This document shows positions 12,241 to 27,505 of a stretch of 61,221 nt of DNA, in pieces; position 1 is the stretch's first letter, and each line of letters opens with the position of its first letter. The notes under the pieces are model-generated. The model searched no databases and was not told the origin of the DNA. It saw only the letters and a program-made list of their open reading frames with translations. The translations under genes and the position numbers were made by a program. The DNA is from a virus, in the IMG/VR virus record IMGVR_UViG_3300031631_000002, positions 1-61,221 of that record. One strand, 5' to 3'.

Positions 12241-12269
12241 ATGATAGCATAGAAAATAACAATTGACAA
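12241..12269 (-). promoter_or_regulatory. Promoter for tail chaperone and tape measure genes
   Basis: Read leftward: TTGTCA, 17 bases, TATCAT (five of six matches in each box). It gives the downstream tail genes their own start point beyond the inserted plus-strand cassette. Its -35 box overlaps that of the divergent promoter at 12263-12291. Confidence 0.7.
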
Positions 12270-12291
12270 GCACTAGTAGTGGATGTATAAA
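12263..12291 (+). promoter_or_regulatory. Promoter of the inserted RHH-lipoprotein-nuclease cassette
   Basis: TTGACA (12263-12268), a 17-base spacer and TATAAA (12286-12291) make a near-consensus sigma70 promoter. The spacer contains the palindrome CACTA-G-TAGTG, a plausible operator for the RHH protein encoded just downstream. The -35 box is shared, base for base in part, with the leftward promoter. Confidence 0.8.
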
Positions 12292-12313
12292 GAGGTTAAA
12301 GGAGGTGATTCAA

Positions 12314-12484
12314 ATGAGAAAGACTCTATACCTAGAAAGAGAGCATGATGATTGGGTTAGTGGTGAGATGAAAAAATCAGGTAGATCTTACCCGGCTGTT
12401 ATAAGAAGGTTAATAGAGAAGGAGATTGAAAAAGATGAGGTACTTAATAATATTTTACCTGCTAACAGTGACAGGCTGCGCTAA
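12314..12484 (+). CDS. Ribbon-helix-helix (CopG/Arc-type) regulator of the cassette
   Basis: The protein has 56 residues and starts at an ATG preceded by AAAGGAGGTG. The pattern RKTLYLEREHDDWVSGEMKK and SGRSYPAVIRRLIEKEIEKD is that of an RHH DNA-binding protein: a beta strand with alternating residues, then two helices with a Ser-containing turn. It is the first gene after a strong promoter with a palindrome in its spacer, so negative autoregulation is likely. Its 3' end overlaps the lipoprotein gene by 50 bases. An antitoxin role is conceivable but no toxin is recognised beside it. Confidence 0.75.
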   Translation: MRKTLYLEREHDDWVSGEMKKSGRSYPAVIRRLIEKEIEKDEVLNNILPANSDRLR

Positions 12485-12659
12485 GCAATACTCAGACACA
12501 CAGTGTTTAGAGATGCAACCTAGAGTAGACACAGTTCAGAAGGTATTATGGTTTAACACACATTGCAAGGCTCACAAGATGGTTGGAAAGAGAAACGTAA
12601 AGTACATAAAAGTAAAGCGAGTAGGTGGAAGGTCCTCTACTTACAGGGTGAGTTGGTAA
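12435..12659 (+). CDS. Small lipoprotein, possible superinfection exclusion factor
   Basis: The protein has 74 residues. A hydrophobic signal (MRYLIIFYLLTVTGC) ends in the lipobox TVTGC, so signal peptidase II should cleave before Cys15 and leave a mature lipoprotein of about 60 residues with three further Cys residues and a basic, beta-like tail (VKYIKVKRVGGRSSTYRVSW). AAGGAG lies 11 bases before the ATG, inside the RHH gene. Phages such as T5 carry small lipoproteins that block the receptor against further infection. Size and type fit that role but no sequence likeness is claimed. It could also be an Rz1-like spanin, but no partner or lysis gene is adjacent. Confidence 0.65.
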   Translation: MRYLIIFYLLTVTGCAKQYSDTQCLEMQPRVDTVQKVLWFNTHCKAHKMVGKRNVKYIKVKRVGGRSSTYRVSW

Positions 12660-12672
12660 TGGGAGCTAAATT

Positions 12673-13275
12673 ATGCATATAACAGAGTTTGAAAAATCAG
12701 AAGCGTACTTAACCGAGGAGAAGTTAGGTGACATCCTCATCACACTCTACCCAAGTAATGAATTCATACACAATAGGGTGGTGCCAAACTCTGGGCTAAA
12801 GAACAGGCCTGACTACAGATGCGACGATTTAATGCTGATAGTGGAGTTTGATGGTCACTACCACTTCACCAGCCCTAAGACCATACTAGCAGACGTTAAG
12901 AAGGATGTTGTTTACGCATCTATGGGGTACAAGATAATTAGGGTGCCATACTTCATACAGATAAACCGCTGGTCCGCAGGCCTGTTCTTTGACAGCAACT
13001 ATTGTGACAAACTTAAGGTGGAGGACTTCCCTCATGGCTTTATCACTCTAAATTCAGTGTTACCAGCAAGTTACTGTTCCATGGGTGTTGTATTGTTCGA
13101 GAAGTGGTGGGGTACTTTATGTCTGGCTGAGATGGGAGAATTCGTTACAGAAAGAAACATATGGTTGCAGGTTGTACACTACGGCAGGGACCCGGCAGAG
13201 GTGTTTCCATTGTCATTCATTGAAAATAATAAAGAAGTGATGAAAGCGGTAATAGAGTACGGGTACCCGACCTAG
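12673..13275 (+). CDS. DUF559/Vsr-like PD-(D/E)XK nuclease
   Basis: The protein has 200 residues. The core NRPDYRCDDLMLIVEFDGHYHF followed by DVKKD and GYKIIRVPYF (given in pieces) matches the Vsr/DUF559 endonuclease fold: Asp in PDY, Glu in VEFDG with a His two residues on, then a Lys/Asp helix and the IIRVPY strand. The C-terminal part (LFEKWWGTLCLAEMGEF and onward) is not recognised. It is the last gene of a three-gene plus-strand cassette inside the minus-strand tail operon, ending in a hairpin terminator. It may attack host or rival DNA, or act as a homing-type or repair enzyme. The fold is fairly secure and the target unknown. Confidence 0.75.
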   Translation: MHITEFEKSEAYLTEEKLGDILITLYPSNEFIHNRVVPNSGLKNRPDYRCDDLMLIVEFDGHYHFTSPKTILADVKKDVVYASMGYKIIRVPYFIQINRWSAGLFFDSNYCDKLKVEDFPHGFITLNSVLPASYCSMGVVLFEKWWGTLCLAEMGEFVTERNIWLQVVHYGRDPAEVFPLSFIENNKEVMKAVIEYGYPT

Positions 13276-21430: not shown

Positions 21431-23137
21431 TTAAACTTTGCTATTTTTTATATTATATACAGCCATTGGTGGGCCAGCAGCGAAAGTATTTTTAGACAGC
21501 AGCCTCGATGCCATGCTGCAGTAAAGGCTTGAGTGGTGAATATGATCCTCCGCCTTCCCGTTAGGCTTCATCCATCTGTAACTTACGAACTCGTCTTCAC
21601 TGCCTCTGTAATCCCTCTGCCTGGACATAACAGACAGTTGGTCAAGCACCAGGTTGTCCATTGAAGATGCCTTGTACGCTATGAGCCCATTTACTACCTG
21701 GTCTGCGAAGTAATCAAAGGCTGGAGTCATGTTGATGTTTATTATTTTAATGTTTCCTACTGCTTCATCTTCTTTTGACTTCAATGAGAACAACTCTAAC
21801 TTTTTCGCTGACTGTGATGAGTTTGCATAAACAGCTGCCCAGGTGTTTGGGACTGTGTTTACAAAGTGAGCTGTTAACTCTGTGTAAGGTAGTAGATCTA
21901 TAACTCCTGACACACACCTGTACTCCCTTAGGAGCTTTGGCAAATCTATTCGAATAGATTTAAGTGGTAGAAACTCCACCCGGTGAATGTATAATCTTCC
22001 TTCTATTATGGATCCAATGGTAAGGCATGAGTGCTTGCCGACATCCAGGCCAAATACGTTAAGTTGTCCGGCTTCGTGGTTCTCGAACTTCACTTGGGTT
22101 ATATCTAATGCGTTCTCACGGGCTGATATTGGTTCAGCCAAGAACTGACACTTGAACTCATTCCTGTCGTCCATTTTTACCATATCTGTGATCAGATCAG
22201 ATGGTTTAACGTAGTGAGGTAAGTCAAAAGGGCCTATTTTCATGCCACGTTTTGGTAGATTTGGAGACTCTGCTACGTTAACCCACTCAGTGTGAGGGTG
22301 GCCGAATGGTGTAGGTTTGTGGCATCTTGGGCACTCTAAGTAGGATTTTGACACGTCAAGCTCTAGGTTAGTTATTTTACTGAGTGTCAGTGCCTGAAGT
22401 GGGTCGTTGTAACCCGGCAACTTAACATTCTCCCAGAAGTTTGGGAAAAATTCGTGATTGCACCGCTCACATTTCAGTATAGCCTGCCAGATGTGACCGC
22501 ACTTCTGAATTTCCAAATCTATATCTGAGTCTTTAAATCTTGGTGAGCTGAAGTATATGGTGGATTTGTGTTCCTGATGACGTTGACGAGCTGCCATGCT
22601 GGAGAGTGTCTTCATTGAGATGTATTGCAGTTCGTCAGCAACTATACATCGAAGAGGTCTTGAGATTGTTGTTGATTTTGACGTTCCGGACCCTGACAAA
22701 CCAAATATACAGGAGCCGTTTATGAGCCGCTTAAGTGATGCTGAGTCCACCTTCCTATCTTTCATGGCCTTAAGTGTAGGAGACCCGTCGATTATACTAG
22801 CTAGGCGTATTTTGAAGGTTTCAGAGGTCTGAGTTAGAGACGGCATCACAAGAGCAGCTGAAAAACCAGGTATCGTGGCGGCGTAAGCCATTAATACGCG
22901 GTATATAATCTCACTGGCTCCAGCTTGTGCTACTTTATGGCATACAAACTGCACGTCTGGATCTACCAACTCTTCCATCATCTTTAATTGATACTCATGG
23001 TGAAGAGTTGTGAAGGGTCTACCAAGTAAGAAGGTTTCCTCGGTTACAAATTTCTTTATCACGTCTTTCTGTGGTCTGATTGCAGTAGTTATTCTAGATA
23101 AAGATTGTTTTAATATTGGATTATCCGAGCAGTTCAT
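21431..23137 (-). CDS. Terminase large subunit
   Basis: The protein has 568 residues. The ATPase part has a degenerate Walker A (VCHKVAQAGASEII) and Walker B with RCIVADELQYIS. A zinc ribbon is inserted at about 225-275 (KCERC, then ECPRC), as in the GpA-type terminases. The nuclease half carries VFGLDVGKHSCLTIG, GVIDLLPYTE and KAEDHIHHSSLYC, matching the three acidic positions of the RNase H fold. It drives DNA packaging and cuts concatemers. It overlaps the small upstream gene by 17 bases. Confidence 0.93.
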   Translation of the reverse strand: MNCSDNPILKQSLSRITTAIRPQKDVIKKFVTEETFLLGRPFTTLHHEYQLKMMEELVDPDVQFVCHKVAQAGASEIIYRVLMAYAATIPGFSAALVMPSLTQTSETFKIRLASIIDGSPTLKAMKDRKVDSASLKRLINGSCIFGLSGSGTSKSTTISRPLRCIVADELQYISMKTLSSMAARQRHQEHKSTIYFSSPRFKDSDIDLEIQKCGHIWQAILKCERCNHEFFPNFWENVKLPGYNDPLQALTLSKITNLELDVSKSYLECPRCHKPTPFGHPHTEWVNVAESPNLPKRGMKIGPFDLPHYVKPSDLITDMVKMDDRNEFKCQFLAEPISARENALDITQVKFENHEAGQLNVFGLDVGKHSCLTIGSIIEGRLYIHRVEFLPLKSIRIDLPKLLREYRCVSGVIDLLPYTELTAHFVNTVPNTWAAVYANSSQSAKKLELFSLKSKEDEAVGNIKIININMTPAFDYFADQVVNGLIAYKASSMDNLVLDQLSVMSRQRDYRGSEDEFVSYRWMKPNGKAEDHIHHSSLYCSMASRLLSKNTFAAGPPMAVYNIKNSKV

Positions 23138-23402
23138 TCAACTTTTCCGTGAATATGTGGTATTTATCTGAGGGAAATATCTCTTTTGCCGCCTCTATTA
23201 GGGCTTGTTCTGTCTTTAGGATCAATTCCATATTTATTACTTCTGCTTGTGTTTTGGTAAGCTCTTTTATTATTGCAGTCAGCGCTGTCATTGCTGAAGC
23301 ACGGGAGCTGAAGGACTCATCTTGATCTTTAGATGCTTGCTCAGCAAGTCCCTCTATCCTAGTGAAATGAGCTGTTATCTCTTTGTTTAGGTCTATTTGC
23401 AT
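23121..23402 (-). CDS. Possible terminase small subunit
   Basis: The protein has 93 residues, all helical by pattern (EITAHFTRIEGLAEQASKD, SAMTALTAIIKELTKTQAEV, ELILKTEQALIEAAKEIFP). Small size, coiled-coil nature and position immediately before the large terminase fit a small subunit's oligomerisation region, but no DNA-binding HTH is seen. An alternative is a helper of the RHH regulator two genes upstream. Confidence 0.5.
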   Translation of the reverse strand: MQIDLNKEITAHFTRIEGLAEQASKDQDESFSSRASAMTALTAIIKELTKTQAEVINMELILKTEQALIEAAKEIFPSDKYHIFTEKLNELLG

Positions 23403-23626
23403 CGATGGATGTAACTCCTGGAGGATTTAACGGTCATTGCATTTATCTCGGCTAAGACTGCTAGGACTTCTGAGGTAACTTGATTCCCACCCCTGTGAAG
23501 TGCCATGTGCAGGTTGTTAGTTAGCTGAGATAGGTCGCCTAGCATTTCGTTAGTGTTTCTGTATTTCCCATCTCTGTGGGTTAAGTTCTTGAATTCCTCG
23601 TCTGAGAGGTTATTTGGTATTTGCAT
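23393..23626 (-). CDS. Small protein of unknown function at the head of the late operon
   Basis: The protein has 77 residues (MQIPNNLSDEEFKNLTHRDG, then LSQLTNNLHMALHRGGNQV), probably helical. It overlaps the RHH gene upstream by 17 bases and the next gene downstream by 10, so it is translated with them. No known motif. Confidence 0.6.
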   Translation of the reverse strand: MQIPNNLSDEEFKNLTHRDGKYRNTNEMLGDLSQLTNNLHMALHRGGNQVTSEVLAVLAEINAMTVKSSRSYIHRCK

Positions 23627-23768
23627 TTGGGTATTCCTTGTCGATAGCTCTGCGAATAAGTTCTGACACAGTTAGACCTGTTGATGCTGAGATTGATCTT
23701 AATCTTTCTCGTTGAGGCGGTGTTATCGTCACCCCTACCTTAATTACTTTTAGTTTTGTACGTTTCAT
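23610..23768 (-). CDS. Ribbon-helix-helix regulator of the late operon
   Basis: The protein has 52 residues. KRTKLKVIKVGVTITPPQRERLRSIS followed by GLTVSELIRRAIDKEYP (in pieces) is a clear RHH/CopG pattern: a basic beta strand, then two helices. It is the first gene of the large minus-strand operon. Its promoter holds a 13-base sequence twice, once between the -35 and -10 boxes, so it is a strong candidate autorepressor and a timer for late gene expression. Confidence 0.8.
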   Translation of the reverse strand: MKRTKLKVIKVGVTITPPQRERLRSISASTGLTVSELIRRAIDKEYPNANTK

Positions 23769-23777
23769 ATTGGTAGT

Positions 23778-23805
23778 ATTACAGTACGGAATACCTCTTT
23801 GTCAA
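23778..23805 (-). promoter_or_regulatory. Promoter of the late (morphogenesis) operon
   Basis: Read leftward: TTGACA (23805-23800), 16 bases, TGTAAT (23783-23778), a near-consensus sigma70 promoter 10 bases before the RHH start codon. Confidence 0.75.
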
Positions 23806-23840
23806 TATCTTTTTGGAAAATATTTCTGGAATACCTCTTT
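23788..23840. promoter_or_regulatory. Two direct operator-like repeats over the late promoter
   Basis: GGAATACCTCTTT occurs at 23788-23800 and 23828-23840, exactly 40 bases (about four helical turns) apart. The first copy fills the promoter spacer and the second lies upstream. This is the geometry expected for co-operative binding by the RHH protein. Confidence 0.7.
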
Positions 23841-23908
23841 ACAGTTTGGTATCTGAGTCGAACAGTGCTCTAATGAGGGCCTGGTTCCATAAGTACCACA
23901 AAGCGGTA

Positions 23909-23960
23909 CCCGTCAACCGTAAACTTTGTTTACGCCAGTGTAAACTTTGTTACCGTCAAC
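23909..23960. repeat. Iteron-like pair with flanking repeats
   Basis: GTAAACTTTGTT occurs at 23919-23930 and 23940-23951, 21 bases apart (two helical turns). The first copy extends to the palindrome GTAAAC-TTT-GTTTAC. CGTCAAC flanks the pair on both sides. From 23841 to about 24220 I see no gene; this is the main element there. Confidence 0.7.
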
Positions 23961-24223
23961 GTTGTTCACACTTTAAGCGTTTCACTTTTTCGTCTCAAAA
24001 CATTTATAACGTAATGGCACGGTAATTGTTGCAAGCTATTATCATGTAATACCTAACACATTGATAGAGTGTAAAAATTTTTACGCGCTGGCGATGCAGA
24101 TTGAAGCAATCAAATCTTCATTATGATGAATAAAAGTAGTGCAATATTTGGCAAGGCATGTTAATATTGCATTGTTCCATTTAGATTAGATAAGATTTAT
24201 TCAACTTCACAAAGGCGGACCCA

Positions 24224-24340: not shown

Positions 24341-24478
24341 ATGTACGCATATAAAAATCTTTATTCTGCTATTGCAGAAGCTTACCAACAAGGCGCCATA
24401 TCCACGCGCCTTTCGGGGTGGATAAATCTAGACGTCTGCACGTGCGGTGCGCCCACTCACGTGGGTTGTTGTTGGTAG
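24341..24478 (+). CDS. Micro-protein with Cys-rich end
   Basis: The protein has 45 residues (MYAYKNLYSAIAEAYQQGAI, later VCTCGAP..VGCCW), preceded by CAGGAG. The N-terminal half is an amphipathic helix and the end has four Cys residues (CTC, CC) that could bind a metal. No family known. The strong hairpins that follow may control its mRNA. Confidence 0.45.
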   Translation: MYAYKNLYSAIAEAYQQGAISTRLSGWINLDVCTCGAPTHVGCCW

Positions 24479-24926: not shown

Positions 24927-25577
24927 ATGTCAAACAATCAATTTAGTAAAGCAGTAGAAAGTTTTAAAACTTATTCCCTCACAACCGCTAATTTTTTCTC
25001 TTCATGCCGCCGACAGGGTATGACTAGAAAAGATTATGAAACGTGGTCGGTGCAAGAGTTGTGTGCTATGTCAGACGTTATAAAGGAGTACGCGTTTAAA
25101 AAAGACGGTTCGGTCAAAACCGTCTCTGCCGTCTGGAAAAACTTTACTCCCGCTAAAAATAAGGCGGACCGCGGTACATTAGACTGGTCTATAGCTTTCG
25201 CGAATAGCAGTATGGTAGGTTATTCAAACTATCTGAAAGCAAACGGCCTTGATCCAAAAACTTGTAAAGCGGCACCTGTATTATTGTATCCAGTACTTGA
25301 GGCCGTTGTTAACGAGGCCGCTGTGAACGAGGCCGCTGTGAACGAGGCCGCTGTGAACGAGGCCGCTGTGAACGAGGCCACCGTGAACGAGGCCGCTGTG
25401 AACGAGGCCGCTGTGAACGAGCTAACAAGCTTAAAAGAACAGGTAATGGGTAAAGAAGAGCATTTCTTGACCGTACAAAAAGCGGTACTTGCTATCATAT
25501 CGGGAGTCAACGAGAAGAAGACAAAAGCTCAATTGCTCGAAGCAATCAATGAGATTGAAAAAATCGTTAATTGTTAA
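24927..25577 (+). CDS. Leader-region protein with VNEAA repeats
   Basis: The protein has 216 residues and is preceded by TTGGAG. Residues 1-125 form an unrecognised basic domain (FSKAVESFKTYSLTTANFF, TRKDYETWSVQELCAMSDV). Residues about 125-165 are eight tandem copies of VNEAA, predicted to be a rigid acidic helix. The C terminus is another helix (LTSLKEQVMGKEEHFLTVQ). A set of TTTACTAAA palindromes follows the gene, so it could be their binding protein, but no HTH is evident. Function unknown. Confidence 0.65.
   Translation: MSNNQFSKAVESFKTYSLTTANFFSSCRRQGMTRKDYETWSVQELCAMSDVIKEYAFKKDGSVKTVSAVWKNFTPAKNKADRGTLDWSIAFANSSMVGYSNYLKANGLDPKTCKAAPVLLYPVLEAVVNEAAVNEAAVNEAAVNEAAVNEATVNEAAVNEAAVNELTSLKEQVMGKEEHFLTVQKAVLAIISGVNEKKTKAQLLEAINEIEKIVNC
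25299..25418 (+). repeat. Eight tandem 15-bp repeats
   Basis: The unit GAGGCCGCTGTGAAC repeats eight times without gaps (first and sixth units slightly diverged), encoding VNEAA units. Because the period is a multiple of three, other frames also stay open here. Unit number may vary between isolates by slippage. Confidence 0.95.
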
Positions 25578-27142: not shown

Positions 27143-27505
27143 CTACTCAGGAATAAAAAATCTTCCGTTAGATTCCCGTTTATATTCAATAAAAGGAAGT
27201 TTACTAACCTTATCATAGAAATGATTTCTAGTCTCAGCCTCAAGATCATTTTCCAAGCAATATCCTTGATATTTAAAATATGCTTCAGATCTAAGAACTT
27301 TGTTCTGAAACGTCTGCATGATGTAAACTATAACTGAAACTGGTTTATGCTTTATTTCTGATTTCAGTATCTCTGAGTAGCACCTGATACTTATGTTTGC
27401 AGCTTTAGAAGTAACACTCATTTTACCAGCATCATCAACAGCCAATTTATGATAGTGATCGCCCATGTCTTTCAGCTTGTCTAAAACTTCATCTCGATAT
27501 TCCAT
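27143..27505 (-). CDS. Stand-alone copy of the primase-helicase C-terminal domain
   Basis: The protein has 120 residues and is preceded by AAAGGAAA. Residues about 55-120 (KVLRSEAYFKYQGYCLENDL, RNHFYDKVSKL, ESNGRFF) align with the C terminus of the 887-residue primase-helicase (KVLRTGMWDKYKEFCIDGS, RNEFYNKVEEV, KEDGRYF). In D5-type helicases this part is a winged-helix region thought to bind DNA. It lies just past the candidate origin. I infer a regulator or loader that binds the same DNA or the same partner. The homology is seen directly; the role is inference. Confidence 0.75.
   Translation of the reverse strand: MEYRDEVLDKLKDMGDHYHKLAVDDAGKMSVTSKAANISIRCYSEILKSEIKHKPVSVIVYIMQTFQNKVLRSEAYFKYQGYCLENDLEAETRNHFYDKVSKLPFIEYKRESNGRFFIPE

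Follow-up and report, generated by a model that had tools for sequence, protein, structure and literature searches.

The window analysed here is the whole of a 61,221-nt stretch of viral DNA (IMG/VR record IMGVR_UViG_3300031631_000002), which had no DNA match in the phage collection. Its minus-strand genes run from 23768 to 1323 and begin with a gene for a 52-aa ribbon-helix-helix (RHH) protein, P0001 (23610-23768). This is followed on the same strand by a gene for a 77-aa protein (23393-23626), which has an AAGGA Shine-Dalgarno (SD) sequence and overlaps the RHH gene by 17 nt, a gene for a 93-aa protein (23121-23402), whose ortholog in the distant phage L093 is 37% identical and lies just upstream of terL, the GpA-type terminase large subunit gene terL itself (21431-23137; PF05876, 3.4e-11; phrog_675, 5.4e-43), and then the portal and capsid genes.

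The sequence-only reading had this RHH gene opening a 23-kb operon. The run of genes on one strand is there, but it is not an uninterrupted operon. A two-gene cassette lies on the plus strand inside the minus-strand late genes at 12.2-13.3 kb (12264-13275); it has a strong promoter, TTGACA-17-TATAAA, whose spacer contains the palindrome CACTAGTAGTG, and encodes a 56-aa RHH/VapB-like protein and then a 200-aa DUF559-type nuclease. Just before the tape-measure gene there is also a strong intrinsic terminator with a perfect 10-bp stem and a T run (11405-11381, minus strand). The transcription unit from the RHH promoter very likely ends or attenuates near 11.4 kb, so this promoter need not control the entire morphogenesis block. 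Since the cassette and terminator interrupt the block, the genes most plausibly transcribed from this promoter are those for the head and for packaging, and the tail genes would receive attenuated read-through or none. The terminator is near-symmetrical and apparently divides head from tail transcription.

P0001 matches the Pfam families RHH_3 (PF12651; 1.2e-6, 28.8 bits, cut-off 21.6) and RHH_1 (PF01402; 1.9e-4, 21.7 bits, cut-off 20.5). The AF2 model (mean pLDDT 84) shows an N-terminal stretch and then two helices, at residues 17-30 and 34-45; being a monomer model, it does not form the strand of the fold, which requires a dimer. A Foldseek search with the model returned ORF56 of pRN1 first, and also NikA, MatP, the PutA DNA-binding domain, CopG and Arc, with weak E-values (best 0.1, probability 0.98), as expected at 52 residues. 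ORF56 was the top natural match by sequence as well as by fold. The gene thus encodes a genuine RHH protein of the MetJ/Arc/CopG type. No RHH relatives were found by tblastn in phages or plasmids, and the one bacterial RHH relative found is distant.

The promoter in front of this gene is of the host sigma-70 type and has a consensus -35 box (TTGACA, 6/6; 23800-23805, minus strand). The -10 region (23775-23783) can be read in two ways, neither of which is a perfect -10. TGTAAT (23783-23778) gives a 16-bp spacer and has G in place of A at position 2, and AATACT (23780-23775), which is TG-extended (TGT-AATACT), gives a 19-bp spacer. The TGTAAT candidate outscores the AATACT alternative, and the promoter is the top-scoring one on the minus strand of the region; it was not listed in a stricter promoter scan, TGTAAT being without the A at position 2. 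Depending on the candidate, the -10 ends 6 or 9 nt before the RHH ATG at 23768, and no SD sequence was found before this ATG. Because of this position and the absent SD the mRNA is probably leaderless, which is the simplest reading of the gene start. Of the 91 window ORFs scanned, two, the RHH gene and one GTG-start ORF, combine a missing SD with a -10-like hexamer at 5-9 nt from the start codon; approximately 10% of random ATGs are preceded by such a hexamer. A GTG inside the gene has a better SD but was rejected as the start: the relative L003 (IMGVR 3300035698_012812) has GTA there, the sole substitution inside the RHH gene, and this abolishes the alternative start. The lambda cI mRNA from PRM offers a precedent, as it is leaderless and encodes a phage repressor. 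The cI protein is however of the HTH type whereas the window protein is RHH, and the leaderless state in the window is deduced only from the -10 position and the missing SD.

Two exact copies of a 13-bp sequence, AAAGAGGTATTCC on the minus strand (GGAATACCTCTTT on the plus strand), lie upstream of the gene at 23788-23800 and 23828-23840, and these are the only copies at 0 or 1 mismatch in the whole 61-kb record. The proximal copy takes in the final base of TTGACA and from there occupies the promoter spacer. That the sequence occurs twice before an RHH gene, once between the -35 and -10 boxes, had been noticed previously, and coordinates, promoter scoring and the Pfam match all agree with it. 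The accompanying claim that the copies are exactly four helical turns apart does not hold; the start-to-start spacing is 40 bp, which corresponds to 3.8 turns (40/10.5), about 70 degrees off the same face. Dinucleotide shuffling gave an exact direct repeat of 13 bp or longer in 0.025% of cases when applied to the last 130 bp before the RHH gene, and in 0.33% when applied to the entire 573-bp intergenic region. The internal symmetry of the sites is poor, and they are direct repeats.

Between the two copies there are two 13-mers that look like degenerate versions of the same sequence. Reading towards the gene, the distal copy (unit 1, 23828-23840, identical in L003) is followed by AGAAATATTTTCC (unit 2, 23815-23827, 8/13 matches to the core), AAAAAGATATTGA (unit 3, 23802-23814, 9/13 matches), which runs into the -35 box, and the proximal copy (unit 4, 23788-23800). 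The units, a pattern noticed post hoc, are at offsets 0, 13, 26 and 40 with 13, 8, 9 and 13 matches of 13; the period is thus around 13 bp, with a last step of 14 from unit 3 to the exact copy. An in-register sum for units 2 and 3 of at least 17/26 was reached at frequencies of 0.00016 in mononucleotide and 0.0005 in dinucleotide shuffles, or 0.005 when any register was allowed, again post hoc, and by 6 of all 122,388 27-mers of the window. This is no more than suggestive of a four-unit array in which the repeat pair forms the strong outer members and the inner two are degenerate. The previously proposed operator pair is upheld as two exact sites, which probably belong to such an array rather than forming a plain pair. 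Two further candidates were rejected as operators. A third near-copy at 23174-23186 is inside the 93-aa gene, where it reads KEIFP; and, in the search across viral contigs, which found the pair in one true relative (L003) and in L019, both copies in L019 lie inside a reading frame as VFP codons.

L003 is the only relative with the same operators, promoter and RHH gene. It is 94% identical over the region with zero changes at 23731-23865, the flanks being much more diverged, and its promoter and RHH gene are conserved as well as terL. Recombination or a recent shared ancestor might account for this operator conservation. No other close relatives were found in the collections searched. Among the top 80 terL relatives in a profile scan, two are near-identical and the others only 22-29% identical and mostly without an RHH gene, so a family-wide operator footprint was not possible.

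More distant RHH homologues were also compared. Inverted repeats with GGTG-type half-sites lie on the gene's own promoter or start in four of them: AGGTGTA-TGAG-TACACCT in L006, ATGTGGTG-N19-CACCACAT in L007, AGGTGCG-N15-CGCACCT and GAGGTGC-N6-GCACCTC in L008, and GTGGTTTAGGT-N21-ACCTAAACCAC, with 11-bp arms, in L093. Individually their p-values are modest (0.03-0.07), with the exception of L093 (0 of 400 shuffles). The half-sites share an AGGT core with the window site, AGGTATT, although they are inverted and those of the window are direct. Taken together they support autoregulation as a habit of the group. Leaderless-like starts are likewise present in three or four of five RHH genes: a perfect TATAAT ends exactly 6 nt ahead of the ATG in L009 and L093, the hexamers of L007 are TAATAT and AATATT (7 and 6 nt, respectively), and L006 has TATGAG at 7 nt with TTGACA at 18 bp. 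Homologues embedded in operons without a promoter of their own (L010-L015, L137-L141 and L146) are uninformative on autoregulation and were left out.

Three observations make autoregulation by P0001 the best-supported inference: the RHH fold, the repeats that overlap the gene's own promoter as in a CopG-like autorepressor, and the repeats seen on the promoters of homologous genes. With moderate confidence we favour P0001 as a negatively autoregulating repressor that heads the head/packaging unit, acts by promoter occlusion and sets a ceiling on the head genes. It may derive from a mobile regulator cassette. The repeats, their overlap with the promoter, the fold, the gene order and the absent SD are present in the sequence, and from these we infer the following course. 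Transcription from the sigma-70 promoter directly before the gene would give an mRNA starting at or within approximately 4 nt of the AUG. RHH dimers would bind strongly to both exact 13-mers and from there extend cooperatively across the degenerate units in between, and coverage of the -35 box and spacer would block RNA polymerase. As the RHH gene is first in a unit with the small packaging genes, terL, portal and capsid, this feedback would cap head-gene transcription, and would not time it.

The sequence-only reading went further, proposing an autoregulated switch for late expression. The autoregulation stands as just described. The late switch is not supported: negative feedback of this kind yields homeostasis or an upper limit and on its own would not delay late genes. 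There is no repressor at infection, so a negatively autoregulated sigma-70 promoter would start unrepressed and then settle. A true late switch would need another input, and the obvious candidate is a second regulatory element of 15-bp palindromes (GTAAACAAAGTTTAC; 23919-23969, minus strand) some 120-170 bp upstream. The window has one perfect copy, one with 2 mismatches and one with 3; this third, degenerate copy is perfect in L003, which has three good copies. These tandem palindromes look like a multi-site operator for another regulator and could be the real control element.

The closest known systems are the CopG and ORF56 autorepressors and the RHH factors F55, SvtR and AvtR of archaeal viruses. 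CopG (pLS1) and ORF56 (pRN1) are plasmid copy-number autorepressors that repress their own promoters. They resemble P0001 in being small RHH proteins (approximately 45-56 aa) with sites overlapping their own promoter, but they control replication genes from compact symmetric operators, whereas the window has spaced direct repeats before phage packaging genes. Arc of P22 is a phage RHH repressor of similar length and a fold match; it differs in controlling the antirepressor and mnt genes from a single inverted operator. F55 of the Sulfolobus virus SSV1 is a 6.3-kDa RHH repressor whose binding sites, tandem direct repeats, lie within or beside promoters, that of F55 included (PMC5569661). It shares with the window a viral RHH protein and tandem direct repeats at its own promoter, but belongs to an archaeal virus, has ATAGATAG repeats and represses early genes to maintain lysogeny. 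SvtR (SIRV1) is self-repressing, and the gene that it represses most strongly encodes a virion structural protein; for viral RHH factors the proposed course is that binding starts at high-affinity sites and then extends across degenerate ones into the promoter (PMC5569661). SvtR and AvtR (AFV6) are viral RHH factors like P0001, and the candidate array, with two strong sites flanking two weak ones, would match the spreading arrangement of the F55/SvtR type. They differ in having archaeal promoters and imperfect inverted repeats, and the best target of SvtR is elsewhere, outside its own operon.

Four other readings were weighed. It is possible, but rather unlikely, that the RHH gene and promoter are a mobile regulator cassette, as found before homing endonucleases, which was inserted or left before the packaging genes. 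RHH would then autoregulate itself with an incidental effect on the head genes, which may also be transcribed from upstream promoters; a promoter-like TTGAGA-17-TAAAGT is present at 23998-23970. Homologous RHH genes do directly precede a GIY-YIG/NUMOD3 endonuclease gene in L009, an HNH endonuclease gene in L007 and an HNH_3-AP2 endonuclease gene in L093, overlapping it in each case, and in L093 the RHH gene is directly after a terL of approximately 26% identity. In L008 it precedes an AAA_24 gene, and in the window itself a second RHH-like gene, that of the plus-strand cassette, precedes the DUF559-type nuclease gene, inserted against the late genes. However, no nuclease gene follows the window RHH gene, which overlaps the next ORF, and between the window and L003 promoter and gene are conserved like terL. 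Furthermore, two distant terL relatives also have a longer RHH-type protein encoded upstream of terL, that of L043 above the RHH_1 cut-off and that of L045 weak.

It is improbable that the repeats bind another protein, either a host factor or another phage regulator, with P0001 binding the upstream palindromes or other DNA. Symmetric half-sites are usual for RHH proteins, and the repeats are direct and only weakly symmetric while the GTAAACAAAGTTTAC palindromes, three of them in L003, lie upstream. Yet RHH factors on tandem direct repeats exist, as F55 illustrates (PMC5569661), and the repeats lie over the promoter of the RHH gene itself and are absent elsewhere in the window. In addition, no HTH repressor family was detected by Pfam in 59 further window ORFs at E up to 0.001.

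Activation by P0001 of its own promoter, where positive feedback would produce a true delayed switch, is very unlikely. AATACT would give a suboptimal 19-bp spacer with a site inside, as for spacer-bound activators, and the viral RHH factor AvtR is an activator at low concentration and a repressor at high concentration (PMC5569661). TGTAAT with its 16-bp spacer nevertheless scores higher, and a site over the -35 box and spacer normally blocks polymerase. We know of no RHH activator that works from a promoter spacer. Lastly, a chance or non-regulatory duplication, conceivable in an AT-rich sequence with a single informative relative, is highly improbable given the shuffle frequencies (0.00025-0.003), the promoter overlap and the restriction of equally close 13-bp repeats in the window to tandem-repeat tiles and other coding regions.

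Negative autoregulation by P0001 would overall be ordinary self-control, and not an established switch for late genes, with P0001 as a new phage example of the RHH autorepressors. Three features raise it slightly above routine: the probable leaderless start, the candidate four-unit array and the association of sister proteins with homing endonucleases. Control of head-gene expression is often obscure in virulent phages without a recognised RNA polymerase or late activator, and a 52-residue autorepressor with a defined candidate operator is an easily tested device. It is possible, but rather unlikely, that phages share a portable module of leaderless RHH autorepressor and operator-promoter, usually placed before homing endonucleases and here recruited to cap the packaging/head unit. 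If it is true that the sister proteins control homing endonucleases, this would illustrate how virion assembly can capture the regulator of a selfish element.

Pairs of RHH and homing-endonuclease-type genes with leaderless-type promoters, possibly a recurrent cassette, are at 2989-3754 in L007, 2956-3893 in L009 and 3404-4064 in L093. In the window, a perfect 14-bp palindrome (GTAAAAATTTTTAC) at 24071-24084 is kept in L003, and a 45-aa ORF in the divergent intergenic region (24341-24478) has a good SD and a cysteine-rich C-terminus, DVCTCGAPTHVGCCW, and is 93% identical in L003. The ORF at 24927-25577 contains 15-bp tandem repeats (GTGAACGAGGCCGCT; 25300-25421), where the L003 alignment breaks. 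A 120-aa protein (27143-27505) shows a resemblance, 37% over 49 aa, to the C-terminal end of the primase encoded nearby, and is perhaps a duplicated domain.
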